A stretch of DNA of 10,109 nucleotides from Deltaproteobacteria bacterium (GTDB lineage: Bacteria > Desulfobacterota > DSM-4660 > Desulfatiglandales > HGW-15), in the NCBI GenBank assembly GCA_019308525.1, contig JAFDIC010000109.1, positions 1 through 10,109 of the forward strand, written 5' to 3'. Shown piece by piece: positions 290-8,548 of the stretch. Below the pieces are notes generated by a model. It did no database searches. It was not told the DNA's origin and worked only from the letters and a program-made list of their open reading frames with translations. How positions within the stretch are numbered: the first letter of the stretch is position 1; the number at the start of each line of letters is the position of its first letter. The position numbers and the translations under genes are program-made.

Positions 290-1162
290 CTAATGATCCA
301 GACTCAGGATCTTCCGTGCTTCCCTGGGCGTGGCGATTTCCCGGCCTATCTGGCTGGCGATCCCGGCGATCTTGCTCACCATCTGGGCATTGCTTTCTGC
401 GAGCACTCCATCTGAAATGTATATGCAATCCTCAAGCCCCACGCGGACGTGTCCTCCTGTTCCAATTGCGACCGGCGCAAGGGTGTAAATGTCCAGCCCC
501 ACCACGCACAAAGACCAGGTCGAGCCCTGGGGCAGAGCAGCCTTCAGAAACACCAGGTTCTCCACTGCGGCCTGCATCCCACCCAGGACCCCCAGGACAA
601 ACTGGAAGTGAAGAGGTGGATCAATGGCGCTGATATCGTGAAGGATTTTGACATTGTTTATCATACCTGCATCGTAGATCTCGCTTTCCGGCTTCACCCC
701 GTGCTCCTTCATGGTATCAGCGAACCTCAGCAATTGGGACCATGGATTTAACTGGACGGCGTCGAGCACGAACTTCCTCTTCTTGCGGCTCAGGATCCCG
801 AAGTTAATCGAGCCCGAATTCAAGGACGCCATCTCAGGTTTTGTATCAGGTTCGGCCGAGAGGGACGGTATGATCCCTATCCTTTCGTCGAAAGTCATGC
901 CCGGACCTCCACCGGTAGATACATTTATGACAATGTCGCACTCCTTGCGGATGAGTCGAATCGTTTCCCTGAAGAGGTCTACATCCTGGACGGGCTTGCC
1001 GGTTGAAGGCTCTCGAACGTGCAGATGAACGACAGCCGCGCCTGCCCTGTGGGCTTCGATCGTGGAGCCCGCGATTTCCTCCGGGGTATGGGGGATATGA
1101 GGGTTCTGTTCCCTCGAGGTCAAGGATCCGGTGACAGCGACAGTGATAATGAGTTTCTCCAT
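290..1162 (-). CDS. BKACE-family beta-keto acid cleavage enzyme (DUF849)
   Basis: Family members are Zn-dependent enzymes that transfer the CoA of acetyl-CoA to a cleaved beta-keto acid, giving acetoacetate and a new acyl-CoA; the founding member Kce acts on 3-keto-5-aminohexanoate in lysine fermentation. From the chosen ATG the protein is 290 residues, the usual family length. Visible landmarks are the metal-binding HLH at 46-48, S82 in VSTGGG, the PEMASLNSGSINFG block at 109-122, FQFVLGVLGG at 186-195, and RVGLED at 240-245 with the third metal ligand E244. The numbering of H46, H48 and S82 matches what I recall for Kce. The Kce Glu14, which contacts the substrate amine, is Leu14 here, so the substrate is probably not an amino-keto acid. 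The start at 1162 has AGGAGG nine bases upstream; ATG codons at 1168 and 1240 are alternatives. It is the last gene of the TRAP operon, 90 bases after dctM. Confidence 0.93.
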   Translation of the reverse strand: MEKLIITVAVTGSLTSREQNPHIPHTPEEIAGSTIEAHRAGAAVVHLHVREPSTGKPVQDVDLFRETIRLIRKECDIVINVSTGGGPGMTFDERIGIIPSLSAEPDTKPEMASLNSGSINFGILSRKKRKFVLDAVQLNPWSQLLRFADTMKEHGVKPESEIYDAGMINNVKILHDISAIDPPLHFQFVLGVLGGMQAAVENLVFLKAALPQGSTWSLCVVGLDIYTLAPVAIGTGGHVRVGLEDCIYISDGVLAESNAQMVSKIAGIASQIGREIATPREARKILSLDH

Positions 1163-1252
1163 GGTCATCAACCTCCTAAAATCCTGATATGTTGTCATCC
1201 ATTCTCGGTCTATCCCTCTATTCCGAACCTGGCCCATCAAACCATTCCCTTT

Positions 1253-2566
1253 CTAAGGAAAAAGAAGATCGGGGAGCCATGTCACGATGCCAGGAAAGAC
1301 CATGCAGAGTCCGAGAACGATGAACTTAAGGGATACAAAGGGTATGATGGACTTATAGATATCAGTCATGTTGGTTTGAGGTGGGGCTACGGCCTTGAGA
1401 TAGAATAGGGCGAAGCCGTAAGGAGGCGTCTGGATGGCGATTTCCATGTTCAGGATCATGAGGATCCCAAACCATATGGGGTCAAACCCCAGTGAAACCG
1501 CCATGGGCGTGTAAAGGGGAGCGCAGATAAGAACGATGATAAACTCGTCGATGAAACATCCCAGCAAAAGCAGGCTCATTTGCATGAGAACGATTACGCC
1601 CATGGGACTCACGTTCCACTCAATGGTGAGCTTGTTCAACAGCTTACCCGCGCCCATGAGCATGTAGAAATTGCTGAAGGTCGTAGCCCCGATGATTATC
1701 CAGACAACCATCCCGGTCAGCTTCATGCTACCGATAGAGGCTTCCCTTATCACATTCCAGTTGAACTGCCGATAGAAAAGCGCAATTCCGGCCGCACCAA
1801 AAGACCCTACGGCGGCCGCCTCGGTTGGAGTGGCAACGCCGAAGAGAATGGATCCGAGAACCATGAAAACAAGGCCAAAGGCGATGGCCAAGTCACGGGC
1901 TGCGATCACTTTGTCTTTCAACACGCCCCTCTCCTTCTTTGAAAGAGGCGGCCCCATAGCAGGGCTGAAGAAGCACCTGCTCGCGATGTACAGGACGAAT
2001 AAGCTCGACATCAAGAGCCCGGGGATGACGCCTCCTGCAAACATCTTTCCGAGAGACGTGTTGGTCTGGGAACTGAACACTATCATGACAATACTGGGGG
2101 GTATCAGAATGCCCATCCCACCCCCCGCCATAACCGCTCCGAGGGTCAAGTGCTTGTCGTAGAGGCGTTTGAGCATGGGTGGGATGCATACCGTCCCGGC
2201 CGTGAGAATGCCGGCGCCAATGATGCCCACCATGGCGCTCATGAGGGTGCACATGATGATTACACCAATGGCCAGGCCGCCCCTCAGCCTCCCTGCGAGA
2301 ATGTGCATGGCGTGGAACATGGCCTCTCCCATTCCTGAACGGAGCAGGATCTGGCCCATAAAGATGAACAGAGGGATGGCCAGGAGGATGAAGTTGGTTA
2401 CCGCCCCCATGGCCGTCGAAGGTATGATCTGAAATGACTGGGGTCCCCACAGTATTGCTCCGAAGGCCATGGCCAGGCCTCCCAGCGCAAAGGCCACGGG
2501 GGTTCCGATGACAAAGGATATCAGAATACCGGCAAAGAGAAGCGCGGAAAGGAGTTCAATACTCAC
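1253..2566 (-). CDS. dctM: TRAP transporter large permease subunit DctM
   Basis: Large membrane subunit of a tripartite ATP-independent periplasmic transporter, which takes up carboxylate-type solutes with sodium or proton symport. The 437-residue product is hydrophobic throughout, with the family's repeated helices. It shows the GMGILIPPS motif followed by the SLGKMFAGGVIPG segment, and an early FVIGTPVAFALGG segment. I chose the GTG at 2566-2564 because AAGGAG lies eight bases upstream, because the GTG overlaps the dctQ stop as GTGA (typical translational coupling), and because the protein then begins with the first membrane helix (SIELLSALLFAG). A longer open frame back to 2692 only adds a polar sequence read through dctQ. 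It ends in TAG and is followed by the BKACE gene. Substrate cannot be read from this subunit. Confidence 0.95.
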   Translation of the reverse strand: MSIELLSALLFAGILISFVIGTPVAFALGGLAMAFGAILWGPQSFQIIPSTAMGAVTNFILLAIPLFIFMGQILLRSGMGEAMFHAMHILAGRLRGGLAIGVIIMCTLMSAMVGIIGAGILTAGTVCIPPMLKRLYDKHLTLGAVMAGGGMGILIPPSIVMIVFSSQTNTSLGKMFAGGVIPGLLMSSLFVLYIASRCFFSPAMGPPLSKKERGVLKDKVIAARDLAIAFGLVFMVLGSILFGVATPTEAAAVGSFGAAGIALFYRQFNWNVIREASIGSMKLTGMVVWIIIGATTFSNFYMLMGAGKLLNKLTIEWNVSPMGVIVLMQMSLLLLGCFIDEFIIVLICAPLYTPMAVSLGFDPIWFGILMILNMEIAIQTPPYGFALFYLKAVAPPQTNMTDIYKSIIPFVSLKFIVLGLCMVFPGIVTWLPDLLFP

Positions 2567-3084
2567 GGAATCATCTCCTTCCCGGTGATGGCCAGATACA
2601 GGCTCTTTATCCAGTTTGAGATCTGCTGTAGGAGGATCAGAAAGGCACCCGCTGGAATCATCAGTTTGTAATGTCCGATGGGAGGGGCCCATTCGCCGGG
2701 TCTTGTTTCGTGATTCACGATGGCATCAAAGGCGGGTCCCCAGGTCGTCATGATAGTCAGGATGATGAAGTAGAGAATGAGGAGGCCGTTTACCAGGTCC
2801 AGAACAGCCCTCTTCCTGGGTGAGACTCTGCCATAAACAATGTCCACGTTGATGTGCTCCCGAAGCCTGTGCACGTAGGCCCCTGCTAGAAGGCCCGTGT
2901 AACCGAACATGAAAATGGACACATCAAAGGCCCAGACCGTGGGTCGCCCAAAGATGTATCTGGAAACAACCTCGTATCCCAGGACACAAACCATGGCCGG
3001 CATGAGTACACTGACGGTCAAGGCAATGATCCTGGTCAACTTTTCAACGGCTCGAATATAGACCCTCAGGATTTTCATAGTCAT
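2563..3084 (-). CDS. dctQ: TRAP transporter small permease subunit DctQ
   Basis: Small four-helix membrane subunit that pairs with DctM in the inner membrane. The product is about 173 residues, normal for DctQ. It shows four hydrophobic segments and the family motif region YEVVSRYIFGRPTVWAFD after the first helix, then GLLAGAYVHRLREHINVD, a typical DctQ stretch. The start is uncertain by two codons. ATG at 3084 and ATG at 3078 are both possible, and the only ribosome-binding-like run (GGGG at 3089-3086) is better spaced for 3078. It overlaps dctM by four bases and lies about 150 bases after dctP, with a strong stem-loop between. Confidence 0.93.
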   Translation of the reverse strand: MTMKILRVYIRAVEKLTRIIALTVSVLMPAMVCVLGYEVVSRYIFGRPTVWAFDVSIFMFGYTGLLAGAYVHRLREHINVDIVYGRVSPRKRAVLDLVNGLLILYFIILTIMTTWGPAFDAIVNHETRPGEWAPPIGHYKLMIPAGAFLILLQQISNWIKSLYLAITGKEMIP

Positions 3085-3235: not shown

Positions 3236-4264
3236 CTACCGGAGGTTGTACTGCTTAATGAATTCGGTCATTGCTTCTATGGCATCTTGCGATGTCTGGT
3301 CCGCCTTGGCATAGTCGCCCCAGACACTCTTGCCGGCTTCAAACCACCTCGCCTTCTCGGCCTCGGTGATCATGGGACCGATCTTGAGACCCTGGCTTTT
3401 CATTTCGCTGAGTGCGTTTTGCTCCCAGAGAAGGCAGTATAAGCGCATTTCGATGATGTGGGTGTCGAAGGCTGCCTTGACAACCGCTTTTAGGTCCTCT
3501 GGGAGCTTGTTCCAGGCCTTGGCATTAACGAGAAAAGGAGCGGCCTGGTACCCGGCGATGGGCACGGGAAACAGGTACTTGGCGACCTCGTAAAACTTCC
3601 CCGCCTTGAAATCAAGAATCTGGGCTCCTACCACACCATCAACTACCCCTGTGGCCAGGCTCGTGTAAACTTCTCCAAAGGCCAGGGTCACGGGTGAGGC
3701 GCCGAGCTGCCTCATCATCTTGCCATACGCTCCCACCGCACGAAGCTTCATGCGCTTGAAATCATCCAGGCTGGTGATTTTCTTCTTTGTCAGGGCATAA
3801 CAAGCGGGTTGAAAGGCGTCGCCCAACCATTCGATTCCCCGTCCTGCGTAAGCCTTCCTGAACACTTGGGTCAACTTGGATTCACGGTACATGGCCAGCA
3901 GTCCGGCAAACACGGTCGGGCCCCCAGGCAACCCGGCCTCGATTTCGCCCACGGGAAGTTCCCCGGCATGGATGGGCATCCAAGGCTGGGCCATTTCCAG
4001 GAGTCCTGTTTTCACGGCCCCGAAGAGTTCGGGAGCGGGGACACCTTCTCCGTCATAAACCTCGTCAATTACCAGGCGGCCTCCTGACATGGCTTTCACA
4101 TCTTCGCAAAACTTGTGATATACCTTGTAGTAGTCGGATGCCCTCGGGTAAAGGAGGCCAATTTTCCACTTGAAGGTTGTCTGGGCGCCAAGCCCTGGAG
4201 GAAGGGTCGCGACAAGCAAAAATACCAGGCATGCTCCGATTGATGTGACGACTATTTTCTTCAT
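3236..4264 (-). CDS. dctP: TRAP transporter solute-binding protein DctP
   Basis: Periplasmic receptor that captures the substrate and hands it to DctQM. The 342-residue product has a clear Sec signal peptide (MKK, a hydrophobic core to about residue 22, likely cleavage near GLGA-QTT at 27-28). Family hallmarks are the GRLVIDEVYDGEG stretch at 62-74, the conserved carboxylate-binding Arg at about 175 (KLRAVGAY), and LGASPVTLAFGEVYTSLATG at 187-206 followed by VVDG. I chose the ATG at 4264 because it opens a proper signal peptide and has a G-rich run (4277-4272) seven bases upstream plus AAGGAA next to the start. It is the first gene of the dctP-Q-M-BKACE operon. The retained Arg suggests an organic acid as ligand; the exact ligand is unknown. 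Confidence 0.95.
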   Translation of the reverse strand: MKKIVVTSIGACLVFLLVATLPPGLGAQTTFKWKIGLLYPRASDYYKVYHKFCEDVKAMSGGRLVIDEVYDGEGVPAPELFGAVKTGLLEMAQPWMPIHAGELPVGEIEAGLPGGPTVFAGLLAMYRESKLTQVFRKAYAGRGIEWLGDAFQPACYALTKKKITSLDDFKRMKLRAVGAYGKMMRQLGASPVTLAFGEVYTSLATGVVDGVVGAQILDFKAGKFYEVAKYLFPVPIAGYQAAPFLVNAKAWNKLPEDLKAVVKAAFDTHIIEMRLYCLLWEQNALSEMKSQGLKIGPMITEAEKARWFEAGKSVWGDYAKADQTSQDAIEAMTEFIKQYNLR

Positions 4265-4775
4265 TTCCTTACCCCCCTTTCTTGGAAGAATGACCAACTC
4301 GCAAAAAAGTCAGAGTCGGGATGGCAAAGTAAAAAGCTTCAAGCTTCAAGTACGTTTTCAAGCCGAGCTTGGGAAATCTTACTTGCGGGAGCGCGCGAAT
4401 CTCGTGTAATGAGCCCTACTTACGCTACCTCGCAATCACCACCAGATGAAGGGCACCGCAGATCCCCAGATCCCGCTCTGCGGGGAATGGGACTTTTTAC
4501 GAAGCCATCAAAGAATGGTTCGAAAGGACATATACAGCAACCATCAGCTCTTGTTCTTCTCACCCCCCTTCTTGCCCGAATATGTCACCCAGATGGACAC
4601 GGCCCGACCCGCAAGTACGTTAATCGCCCTCTCAACAGGGCGGGTATCTGGCCAACCGGAACTCCTACAAGTCGTTCTCGGAATCTGAGGCACAAGACAT
4701 CTTATTCTTGGAGATGATCGCCACCGTTTGCTCTCTTGGGAGCCTCTACAAGGTAGCAAGGCAAGTCCCAAATGG
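4265..4775. other. long leader/intergenic region upstream of dctP
   Basis: No gene is supported here. It contains a tandem aagcttc duplication (4334-4347), the hairpin cccgc-tct-gcggg at 4472-4484 within an 18-base motif that matches 34-51 at 17 of 18 positions, the sequence gactttttacgaagccatcaa at 4491-4511, and a hairpin cgccct/agggcg at 4625-4642. If the dctP message starts at the minus-strand promoter near 4804-4832, all of this would be a 5' untranslated leader of roughly 530 nt. It resembles accumulated dispersed-repeat debris rather than a known riboswitch. Confidence 0.5.
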
Positions 4776-4786
4776 TAAAGAGATTG

Positions 4787-4815
4787 TTGACAATTAAAAC
4801 ATCTATATATACATT
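4787..4815 (+). promoter_or_regulatory. sigma70-type promoter of the GntR gene
   Basis: A perfect -35 TTGACA at 4787-4792 is followed after 17 bp by TACATT at 4810-4815 (four of six to consensus). Transcription would begin near 4822, giving an untranslated leader of about 100 nt before the regulator. The -35 box lies inside the left operator palindrome, so binding there should block the regulator's own promoter (autoregulation, inferred). Confidence 0.6.
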
Positions 4816-4832
4816 AGCCGACAAATTGTCAA
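4804..4832 (-). promoter_or_regulatory. candidate promoter of the dctPQM-BKACE operon
   Basis: On the minus strand a perfect -35 TTGACA (4832-4827) is followed after 17 bp by TATATA (4809-4804, four of six to consensus). It mirrors the plus-strand promoter and shares its spacer, so the two polymerase sites overlap fully. The -35 box lies in the right operator palindrome. The start would be near 4797, leaving a leader of over 500 nt before dctP. A closer dctP promoter is possible, but I found none convincing. Confidence 0.45.
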
Positions 4833-4919
4833 CGATCTTTTTAGCCCGATTTTTTTCAATACCTTCCCGGCCCATCGAGCCTGCGAACCGCATTCCTCCA
4901 AACCCGGCGAAGGGAGGTA

Positions 4920-5585
4920 TTGATAAGTGCTCACCACGGGGTTGAAACATTTTCCATGAACGAGAACAAGGTAGTCGAATATGTCAAGGATGCCATCATT
5001 CGAGGGCATTACCTGCCCGGGCAGAAGATTGTAGAGACACAATTATGTAAGCTCCTCGGAGTCGGGCGAAGCCGTGTTCGGGAGGCCTTTCGCCAGCTCG
5101 AGCAAGAGGACTTTATTGAAAGAATCCCCAATGCCAGCCCGGTGGTAAAGAAAATGTCCCAGAAGGATATTTCCCAGATCTGGGATCTTCTTGGCGTGCT
5201 CGAAGGGTTGGCAATGAGGGTTGCAACTCCCACCCTGAGAGAGAAAGAGGTGGGGAAGATAGAAGACCTTGTGGATAGGATGGAGCAGAACCGGGACAAT
5301 AGGTTCATGATCTATGAGTTCAATATGAGGTTTCACCAGTTTCTTACGGAGCTCGGGGGAAACAACAGGCTGACTTCCTTTGCAAATACCCTCCGGGATC
5401 AGGCCCGGAGGATGAGCCTCGAGAGTTTTTACAATCCCCAGCAAATAGAGTTTTCGCTACTGGAACATCGGGCCATACTTGAGGCCATAAAGCAAAGGCA
5501 GGCTCCAAGGGTAGAGGAACTAATAAGGGAGCACTATCTTACATCAAAAAACAGGTTGATAAGCTACATGAACAGGACCCTTTGA
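4920..5585 (+). CDS. GntR-family transcriptional regulator, FCD subfamily
   Basis: DNA-binding repressor or activator with a C-terminal ligand-sensing domain, typical of organic-acid catabolic loci. Counting from the TTG start (221 residues), the winged helix-turn-helix spans about 18-78 (PGQKIVETQLCKLLGVGRSR then VREAFRQLEQEDFIER). The all-helical FCD domain spans about 83-215, with metal-site histidines H139 (MRFHQFL), H183 (EHRAI) and H205 (REHYL); the usual Asp position before H139 is Asn135. The start is uncertain. TTG at 4920 has AGGGAGG only two bases away, while ATG at 4956 has little ribosome-binding sequence but gives a plausible 209-residue protein. It is divergent from dctP and preceded by the double operator, so it most likely controls the TRAP-BKACE operon and itself. 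The effector is probably the imported acid or its CoA ester (inference). Confidence 0.93.
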   Translation: MISAHHGVETFSMNENKVVEYVKDAIIRGHYLPGQKIVETQLCKLLGVGRSRVREAFRQLEQEDFIERIPNASPVVKKMSQKDISQIWDLLGVLEGLAMRVATPTLREKEVGKIEDLVDRMEQNRDNRFMIYEFNMRFHQFLTELGGNNRLTSFANTLRDQARRMSLESFYNPQQIEFSLLEHRAILEAIKQRQAPRVEELIREHYLTSKNRLISYMNRTL

Positions 5586-6799: not shown

Positions 6800-6847
6800 A
6801 TGCTGGAACCGGAAATAAAGTTGGTCTTTCATTCTGGGGGGTGTTGA
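6800..6847 (+). CDS. possible 15-codon upstream reading frame coupled to pit
   Basis: ATG at 6800 opens MLEPEIKLVFHSGGC and stops at TGA 6845-6847, sharing one base with the pit ATG (TGATG). A purine-rich GAGGGG run lies about nine bases before its start. The overlap is the geometry seen in translational coupling. There is no conservation evidence, and it may be chance; the peptide itself is probably not functional. Confidence 0.25.
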   Translation: MLEPEIKLVFHSGGC

Positions 6848-7776
6848 TGTGGGTACTGGCTGGTGGTTTATTGCTGGGGTGGGGACTGGGAAGCAATGAT
6901 TCTGCAAACATATTCGGTACAGCAGTTGCCTCAAATGTTATCAAGTACCGCACAGCAATCATACTAACCTCTCTGTTCGTAGTGACCGGGGCCGTGCTGG
7001 AGGGTCACAAGGCCATGGATACCGTCGGGGAGATGTCAAGGATGACTGCGACCGGTGCCTTCTTGGCCACCATTTCCGCAGGCCTTTGCGTGAGCCTGTT
7101 TTCTTACCTGGCCATCCCCGTCTCCGCTTCGCAGGCCATCATGGGTGCAGTTCTGGGGATAGGGATACTTACCGGAATACCGGATTTGACAAGGCTTTAC
7201 AGGGTCTTGATATGCTGGTTGTTTACACCCGTAGGCGGTGTTTTCTTTACTGCTGCTTTGTACCCCCTGGTCGGACGCTTGTTCCAGAAAGCCCTCCTGG
7301 ATATCCGATGGCAGAGCGGCGTCATCTACCTGGCACTGCTGGCATCCGGGTGTTATGGCGCTTACGCCCTGGGGGCCAACAATGTGGCAAATGTAACGGG
7401 CGTTTATGTAGGTTCCGGGATGCTGGGGCCAGTTGAGGCCTCCCTGATTGGCAGCATGGCGATTGCTTCAGGCGTCATCACCTACAGCAAGAAGGTCATG
7501 TACACGGTTGGAAGGAAAATAGTGGAGCTGGACAATTTCTCCGCTTTCATCTCCACTCTTTCAGCGGCCATAACCACGCACCTGTTCACCCAGGTGGGAG
7601 TCCCTGTCTCCACCTCCCAGGCGATCGTTGGAGCAGTGGCAGGGATAGGAATCATCAAGGGTTCCCAGACCCTGAGAAAGAAGGTGATCTTGGAGATCGT
7701 GGCAGGCTGGGTGTCCACTCCTCTTTTCAGCGGGCTCATGGCCTACCTGCTGATGAGGATTGTGATTGCATTTTGA
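6847..7776 (+). CDS. PiT-family inorganic phosphate (anion) permease
   Basis: Inner-membrane permease of the Pit/PiT group, driven by cations, normally for phosphate. The 309-residue product is a compact form; E. coli PitA is near 500. It shows the family's inverted duplication clearly: GSNDSAN at 15-21 and GANNVAN at 176-182, each followed later by PVSASQAIMGAVLGIGI (91-107) and PVSTSQAIVGAVAGIGI (253-269). About eight to ten hydrophobic helices are visible. The second signature carries Asn179 where Asp is usual. The start at ATG 6847 has GGGGGG five bases upstream, and the first signature falls at residue 15 as expected; GTG 6841 is an alternative. A DUF47 gene follows after 118 bases, the usual partner. 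Related sulfate permeases exist, so phosphate is likely but not proven. Confidence 0.93.
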   Translation: MWVLAGGLLLGWGLGSNDSANIFGTAVASNVIKYRTAIILTSLFVVTGAVLEGHKAMDTVGEMSRMTATGAFLATISAGLCVSLFSYLAIPVSASQAIMGAVLGIGILTGIPDLTRLYRVLICWLFTPVGGVFFTAALYPLVGRLFQKALLDIRWQSGVIYLALLASGCYGAYALGANNVANVTGVYVGSGMLGPVEASLIGSMAIASGVITYSKKVMYTVGRKIVELDNFSAFISTLSAAITTHLFTQVGVPVSTSQAIVGAVAGIGIIKGSQTLRKKVILEIVAGWVSTPLFSGLMAYLLMRIVIAF

Positions 7777-7894
7777 GGGAGGCCATTGGTATCATTTCAG
7801 GGGTTTGAAACGGCCATTTGAAAAGGGGAGCGGATAGACAGGACCTGTTTGGGCTGGAAACGCGAAACGCACGTGTTTCCCAGGGAGGGAATGG

Positions 7895-8548
7895 ATGTTT
7901 TTCTTTCAAAAAGAGAAGAAGGTCATTGAACTGCTGACAAGACATCTGGATACTGTGGAGGAATGTCTGAATCTTGGCATCAAGACCATTAAGGAGTACC
8001 TTTCCGGCGATATAAAGGAAGCCAAGGTCCTGGCCAAACAGGTGGATGCCATAGAAACCCAGGCGGACATTATTCGTTACGAGATTCGAGACGTCCTCTA
8101 TTCGGGCGCATATCTCCCGCGATTACGGGAAGACATATACAGGCTCGTGGAAAGCGTGGACGAAGTGGCAAATGCAGGGGAGGCATGCTGTGATTTCTTC
8201 CTAAATCAGCGTCCAAAGATACCCGAGTCTTTGCAGGTCATGTTTTTTGCTGCTGTTCAGGAATCCTTGGGCATTATCCAGCCCCTGAAGCATGCCATTG
8301 TGTGTTTCCTCAAGGGCGAGTGTCCTGTCGAGGTCTCCCGTCAGCATGCCAAAGAGGTGGGACTGAAAGAATCGGACGTCGATCAGATAGAATGGGATCT
8401 AACAAAAGAAATCTTCACCATGACCACCATTGATTACAGCCATAAGATCCACTTGAAGCTTTGCCTCAACTCCATTGCAAAGGTCTCGGACCAGGCAAAA
8501 GATGTCTCTGACCAACTCGACCTGGTCATTCTCAAATCCATCATTTGA
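7895..8548 (+). CDS. DUF47 (PhoU-like) Pit accessory protein
   Basis: Soluble all-helical protein of the DUF47/TIGR00153 family, which resembles PhoU and is almost always encoded beside PiT permeases, where it is thought to regulate transport. The 217-residue length is typical. Acidic metal-binding motifs characteristic of the fold are visible in two halves: DAIETQAD at 51-58 with ESVDEVAN at 86-93, and ESDVDQIEWDL at 159-169 with KVSDQAKDVSDQL at 196-208. The ATG at 7895 has AGGGAGG six bases upstream, strong support for this start over the out-of-frame ATG four bases earlier. No signal peptide or membrane helix is seen, which fits action at the cytoplasmic face of the permease. It is probably co-transcribed with pit. 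Confidence 0.94.
   Translation: MFFFQKEKKVIELLTRHLDTVEECLNLGIKTIKEYLSGDIKEAKVLAKQVDAIETQADIIRYEIRDVLYSGAYLPRLREDIYRLVESVDEVANAGEACCDFFLNQRPKIPESLQVMFFAAVQESLGIIQPLKHAIVCFLKGECPVEVSRQHAKEVGLKESDVDQIEWDLTKEIFTMTTIDYSHKIHLKLCLNSIAKVSDQAKDVSDQLDLVILKSII

Follow-up and report, generated by a model that had tools for sequence, protein, structure and literature searches.

Recent work has shown that bidirectional promoters are widespread, while a 2026 study noted that little had been done on how they are controlled (PMC12825309). At the acrA/acrR bidirectional promoter of E. coli, AcrR represses both RNAs, and in tests of five E. coli promoters of this type the two directions were too weak at basal activity to compete, competition appearing once transcription was raised (PMC12825309). 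The E. coli bidirectional promoters described there and by Warman and colleagues share a −10 element, and the commonest distances between their start sites are 18, 10 and 23 bp. Divergent arrangements are also described for the FadR subfamily of GntR regulators, in which an FCD-type gene is divergent from an operon with two GT/AC palindromes in the gap (Suvorova 2015, PMC4494728); the spacing GT-N2-AC is given there for GntR, HpxS, HypR, MdcY, PrpR and UxuR. Atu1419 of Agrobacterium, which has an FCD metal site of the N-H-H-H type, likewise has a 10-bp GT-N2-AC operator, ATGTATACAT; its two palindromes, 190 bp apart, lie between atu1418 and atu1419 and coincide with promoter elements of the two genes, and the protein was shown to be a tetramer, with a DNA loop proposed (PMC7797058).

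The stretch of 10,109 nucleotides analyzed here (the window) has the layout of such a divergon, with a transcription factor gene on the plus strand divergent from a predicted structural operon and two operator words between them (Table 1). The minus-strand genes are ordered DctP, DctQ, DctM and BKACE, and the best solved relative of the BKACE protein is the 3-keto-5-aminohexanoate cleavage enzyme. The regulator contains an N-terminal GntR winged helix (51 bits) and a C-terminal FCD domain (84 bits), both above the cut-off, placing it in the FCD (FadR/VanR) subfamily of the GntR family. The earlier note on this DNA had given the regulator as 4920-5585; the frame is that of an FCD-GntR protein, but the start is more likely ATG 4956 than TTG 4920, judged by the alignment, in which this column begins 10 of 16 rows. 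Its 15 closest homologues besides itself show 48-72% identity and are taken to be mainly metagenomic, judged by their source labels (jgi, ena, lgn). Residues N135, H139, H183 and H205 (numbered in the frame from 4920) align with the Atu1419 metal ligands N137, H141, H192 and H214 and are invariant in all 16 alignment rows, so that the D/N and three His of the FCD domain are present. This makes a metal-bound effector plausible, for instance a carboxylate, which would suit a gene set that includes a TRAP transporter and a beta-keto acid enzyme.

Table 1 Features of the gntR-dctP region and neighboring genes in the window
Feature	Coordinates	Strand	Remarks
BKACE, beta-keto acid cleavage enzyme	290..1240	−	domain match
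DctM	1253..2692	−	domain match
DctQ	2563..3084	−	domain match
DctP, TRAP substrate-binding protein	3236..4297	−	start probably ATG 4264, by our own reading
Long predicted operon leader	4265..4797	−	533 nt, no structure above chance (z 0.10)
Left arm of inverted repeat	4776..4795	+	18/20 complementary to right arm
Operator 1 (putative), TTGTTGACAA	4784..4793	+	GT-N2-AC palindrome, of a class enriched in upstream regions of 111 FCD-GntR relatives
−35 TTGACA, predicted gntR promoter	4787..4792	+	inside operator 1
−10 TATATA, predicted operon promoter	4804..4809	−	without final T; start predicted at about 4797
−10 TACATT, predicted gntR promoter	4810..4815	+	promoter scanner; start predicted at about 4822
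Right arm of inverted repeat	4824..4843	−	28 nt from left arm
Operator 2 (putative), TTGTCAACGA on + strand	4826..4835	−	one mismatch to TTGTNNACAA
−35 TTGACA, predicted operon promoter	4827..4832	−	inside operator 2
FCD-GntR regulator	4956..5585	+	PF00392, PF07729; open frame 4920-5585 from TTG 4920, ATG 4956 favored

The gap between gntR and dctP contains the inverted repeat that had drawn attention to the locus. Its 18/20 arms were never matched in shuffled sequence, where the best repeat with 20-bp arms reached 16/20 in 500 shuffles of the intergenic region and 17/20 in 200 shuffles of the whole window. The near-perfect two-fold symmetry over 68 bp that had been claimed thus holds for the arms but not for the whole site, which is symmetric at only 44 of 68 positions because the middle 28 bp are asymmetric. 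The small palindrome described in each arm is present as GT-N2-AC, with self-complementarity of 8/10 and 6/10, and each arm has its perfect TTGACA, on opposite strands. The words TTGTTGACAA and TTGTCAACGA are the only two matches to TNGTNNACNA in the window, and their centers are 42 bp apart.

To characterize the operator class, upstream regions of 111 mostly more distant FCD-GntR genes besides that of the window were gathered via 85 genomes of the order and further stretches. Each region was measured back from the point where the profile match begins and may include a few codons. The strict word TTGTNNACAA was present in 17 of the 111 regions, compared with a shuffle mean of 0.70 (maximum 3, 60 shuffles), and TNGTNNACNA in 29 (shuffle mean 6.9, maximum 12, 60 shuffles); the latter was absent from the other 82. 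The 111 loci are mutually related, and these counts do not represent independent events. Spacings of N0, N1 and N3-N8 in the same regions were at or below background. Since GT-N2-AC is enriched upstream of FCD-GntR genes while other spacings are not, the identity of the window words as putative operators is well supported, with clear specificity for one spacing, and the double GntR operator of the earlier note is borne out at this level. At the sequence level, both words have the GT/AC palindrome with short fixed spacing typical of the subfamily, and the enrichment agrees with the GT-N2-AC groups listed for the FadR subfamily (PMC4494728) and with the Atu1419 operator (PMC7797058). The enriched word also provides a practical operator motif for a set of FCD regulators that are uncharacterised, including some encoded next to beta-keto acid cleavage genes.

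Each −35 box lies within an operator word, and the two promoter-like sequences face each other and overlap. As the earlier note had stated, both have the same 17-bp spacer; each matches the consensus at 10 of 12 positions, with a perfect −35 box and a weak −10. The −10 hexamers abut, and the predicted starts are 25 bp apart. The promoter scanner listed the plus promoter and missed the minus promoter because it requires the final T of the −10, which TATATA lacks. Shuffling the middle of the site gave both −10 hexamers at 4/6 or better with 17-bp spacers 2.2% of the time, and 14.7% of the time when spacers of 16-18 were allowed, so that, given this AT-rich middle, the −10 hexamers alone are modest evidence.

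Overlapping pairs of this kind were then sought in the 112 regions that include the window. A face-to-face overlapping pair was defined by two promoters of at least 10/12, each with a −35 box of at least 5/6, and predicted starts −5 to 40 bp apart. Four regions contain one, namely the window (starts 25 bp apart), L040 (21), L065 (28 or 30) and L021 (28), compared with a mean of 0.025 in shuffles of whole regions (maximum 1, 40 rounds) and 0.183 in shuffles of 60-bp blocks, which keep the local AT content (maximum 2, 60 rounds). The placement of the operators on both −35 boxes of overlapping divergent promoter-like sequences, also claimed earlier, stands. The −35 boxes of L021 are 5/6 and its pair has no operator-type word, while both operator-type words of L065 have one mismatch each. 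Paired boxes of the TTGTTGACAA type, with a perfect TTGACA and at most one mismatch elsewhere, were likewise found in four of the 112 regions and in none of the shuffles. Three of these are head-to-head, with centers 42 bp (window), 47 bp (L040) and 38 bp (L065) apart, and the fourth, L001, is back-to-back at 15 bp; these spacings come from four cases only.

Beyond these regions, a tighter head-to-head pattern was found in one of the 85 genomes of the order, beside a helix-turn-helix/peptidase-like gene by our reading of the open frame. A looser pattern gave 13 places in 12 of 395 genomes of the phylum, compared with one genome for a reversed-pattern control. No FCD relative was detected by tblastn with ten FCD queries in any of the 13 loci as fetched (1.7-3.1 kb each), while the positive control L118 was found. 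The strict head-to-head pattern was accordingly rejected as a marker of FCD regulators across the phylum; the arrangement recurs, but it is uncommon and not a family signature. At E 1e-50 the regulator had a match in one of the 395 genomes, G001 itself, with at most seven candidates scored per genome among the matches listed. No relatives were found in viral contigs, and the 1521 plasmid records with FCD relatives, all below 60% identity (about 29-32% among the 20 matches listed), were left out of the analysis.

Loss of the inverted repeat in orthologous loci had been named in the earlier note as evidence against its reading, and in the two closer relatives read as DNA the overlapping form is indeed absent. 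L001, from a Deltaproteobacteria MAG, is 50% identical in its best segment and lies beside a BKACE gene, and has a different repeat; at L001:852-876 operator-type words like those of the window stand back-to-back, with −35 boxes pointing apart toward BKACE and gntR. L002, from a Desulfobacteraceae MAG, is 55% identical, its gene cut by the contig end, and has no pair, only one weak TNGTNNACNA word (TCGTTTACAA) near the start and one minus-strand box; its divergent genes encode an arylsulfotransferase and a TctABC transporter. L118, the full view of L040, encodes a regulator 29% identical to that of the window and is a stronger example than the window. Here TTGTTGACAA (1569-1578) and, with one mismatch, CTGTCAACAA (1616-1625) lie on the two −35 boxes, and TTGTATACTA (1593-1602) lies on the −10 hexamers, which overlap. 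The three operator-type words of L118:1569-1625, spaced 24 and 23 bp apart, thus cover every promoter element of the pair. In L118 about 620 nt separate the site from the divergent genes, as in the similarly long gap of the window; on the far side lie genes for an old-yellow-enzyme relative, a 3-hydroxyacyl-CoA dehydrogenase and a BKACE protein. In L119, which holds L065, the gene upstream runs in the same direction as gntR, so its paired boxes serve no divergent operon.

We interpret the site, with a probability of about two in three, as a locally autorepressed, overlapping (face-to-face) divergent promoter under the adjacent FCD-GntR protein. One dimer would bind each arm, covering the −35 box of one promoter and blocking it sterically; because each operator covers one −35 box, gntR and the dctPQM-BKACE genes, predicted to form one operon served from this site, would both be shut in the absence of inducer. 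Binding of a carboxylate, possibly the acid that is taken up or a beta-keto intermediate, to the metal-containing FCD domain would release the protein, after which polymerase could load in one orientation at a time. Competition between the two directions for polymerase is only possible, and is not to be assumed at basal activity, going by the five E. coli promoters (PMC12825309).

This arrangement resembles acrA/acrR (PMC12825309) in that overlapping divergent promoters separate a repressor gene from its target genes, that the repressor is predicted to shut both, and that two polymerases presumably could not occupy the site at once. It differs from the E. coli bidirectional promoters in that the predicted −10 hexamers abut rather than being shared, the predicted starts are 25 bp apart, and the −35 boxes are perfect and each inside an operator. 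The double palindrome recalls the FadR-subfamily divergons, for which the main text of Suvorova 2015 (PMC4494728) places sites relative to genes rather than promoter boxes, without the word 'overlap'; the common double sites there tend toward the center of the gap, while the window pair is nearer the regulator gene. Atu1419 (PMC7797058) shares the metal site, the operator class and the position on promoter elements of both genes, and differs in the distance between its palindromes. Autorepression of overlapping divergent promoters is thus a logic already published for acrA/acrR, as double sites are for FadR-type divergons. The titles and abstract openings searched contained no description of the present arrangement, which is not proof of its absence.

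The main weakness of the divergent-promoter reading is the operon side, where the predicted start lies 533 nt from the dctP ATG, compared with 134 nt from the gntR ATG, and the leader appears unstructured. The repeat might instead control gntR alone, the minus promoter-like sequence being an incidental mirror of the operator and the dctPQM-BKACE promoter lying in the 500 bp next to dctP. The missing final T of the minus −10 would fit this, as would L119, without a divergent gene, and L118, in which an operator-like word, TTGTTGACAT (2182), is close to the first divergent gene (2246). However, the minus −35 box of the repeat is the sole minus-strand −35 in 4298-4960 that gives at least 9/12 with spacers of 15-19, no minus-strand promoter-like match of at least 9/12 lies between 4298 and the repeat, and 4201-4960 contains no further operator-like word within one mismatch. 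A sigma-54 promoter for dctP was considered and set aside, the single match (9/12 at 4770) being unconvincing. We consider control of gntR alone unlikely. An RNA element on the operon side was likewise rejected, as the leader folds like its shuffles and the one match to Rfam was below threshold and fell in another part of the window.

The spacing of the operators bears on a further reading, in which the arms are occupied by two dimers or one tetramer and cooperation depends on helical phasing or a small loop, similar to what has been put forward for Atu1419, a tetramer. The earlier note had placed the operators four helical turns apart on one face; the 42-bp spacing was confirmed, and both the metal site common to Atu1419 and the window FCD domain and the FadR-type divergons with double sites at roughly constant spacing (PMC4494728) could be taken in favor of cooperation. 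However, the head-to-head spacings of 42, 47 and 38 bp correspond to 4.0, 4.5 and 3.6 turns, so that a common face is not conserved, and L001 is back-to-back at 15 bp. In addition, promoter geometry itself dictates 42 bp, and 42 bp is short for a DNA loop. Helical phasing was dropped as a key feature after the recurrence and spacing scans, and cooperation of this kind appears improbable. Binding by a regulator other than the neighboring FCD-GntR protein is more improbable still: the match between the arms extends to 20 bp, further than the 10-bp operator, and similar long repeats occur near genes other than FCD-GntR genes, but the enrichment upstream of FCD-GntR genes is specific to the GT-N2-AC spacing.

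Under autorepression of the overlapping promoters, the two perfect −35 boxes, being buried in operators, would offer a clean test of polymerase competition at derepressed overlapping promoters. A broader proposal is that a single 10-bp word acts as both repressor operator and −35 box, in both directions on the same DNA, with one FCD regulator setting which of two mutually exclusive polymerase orientations loads; that this arose more than once beside BKACE (the window and L118); and that the geometry is free to slide or flip, as in L001, while operator and −35 box stay fused. We put this forward tentatively and regard it as doubtful.

Several minor features were also observed. In the gntR leader, a possible 12-pair stem (4856-4867/4912-4923) covers GGGAGG and TTG 4920, with a folding z of only −1.37. 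L127 and L133 (G032:C9 88664-88708 and 89755-89799) are two inverted repeats that resemble each other, TTGTTGACAACTT to AAGTTGTCAACAA, separated by about 1.1 kb, in a stretch with a 344-aa open frame and no FCD relative. L125 and L126, with no FCD relative within the fetched loci, contain a 46-bp inverted repeat with 19-bp arms (TTGTTGACATGGAAACAAT) common to two genomes. In the window itself, 6841-8548 contains a PHO4-family permease gene, with a partial match to the CysP model, followed by a DUF47 (PhoU_div) gene.
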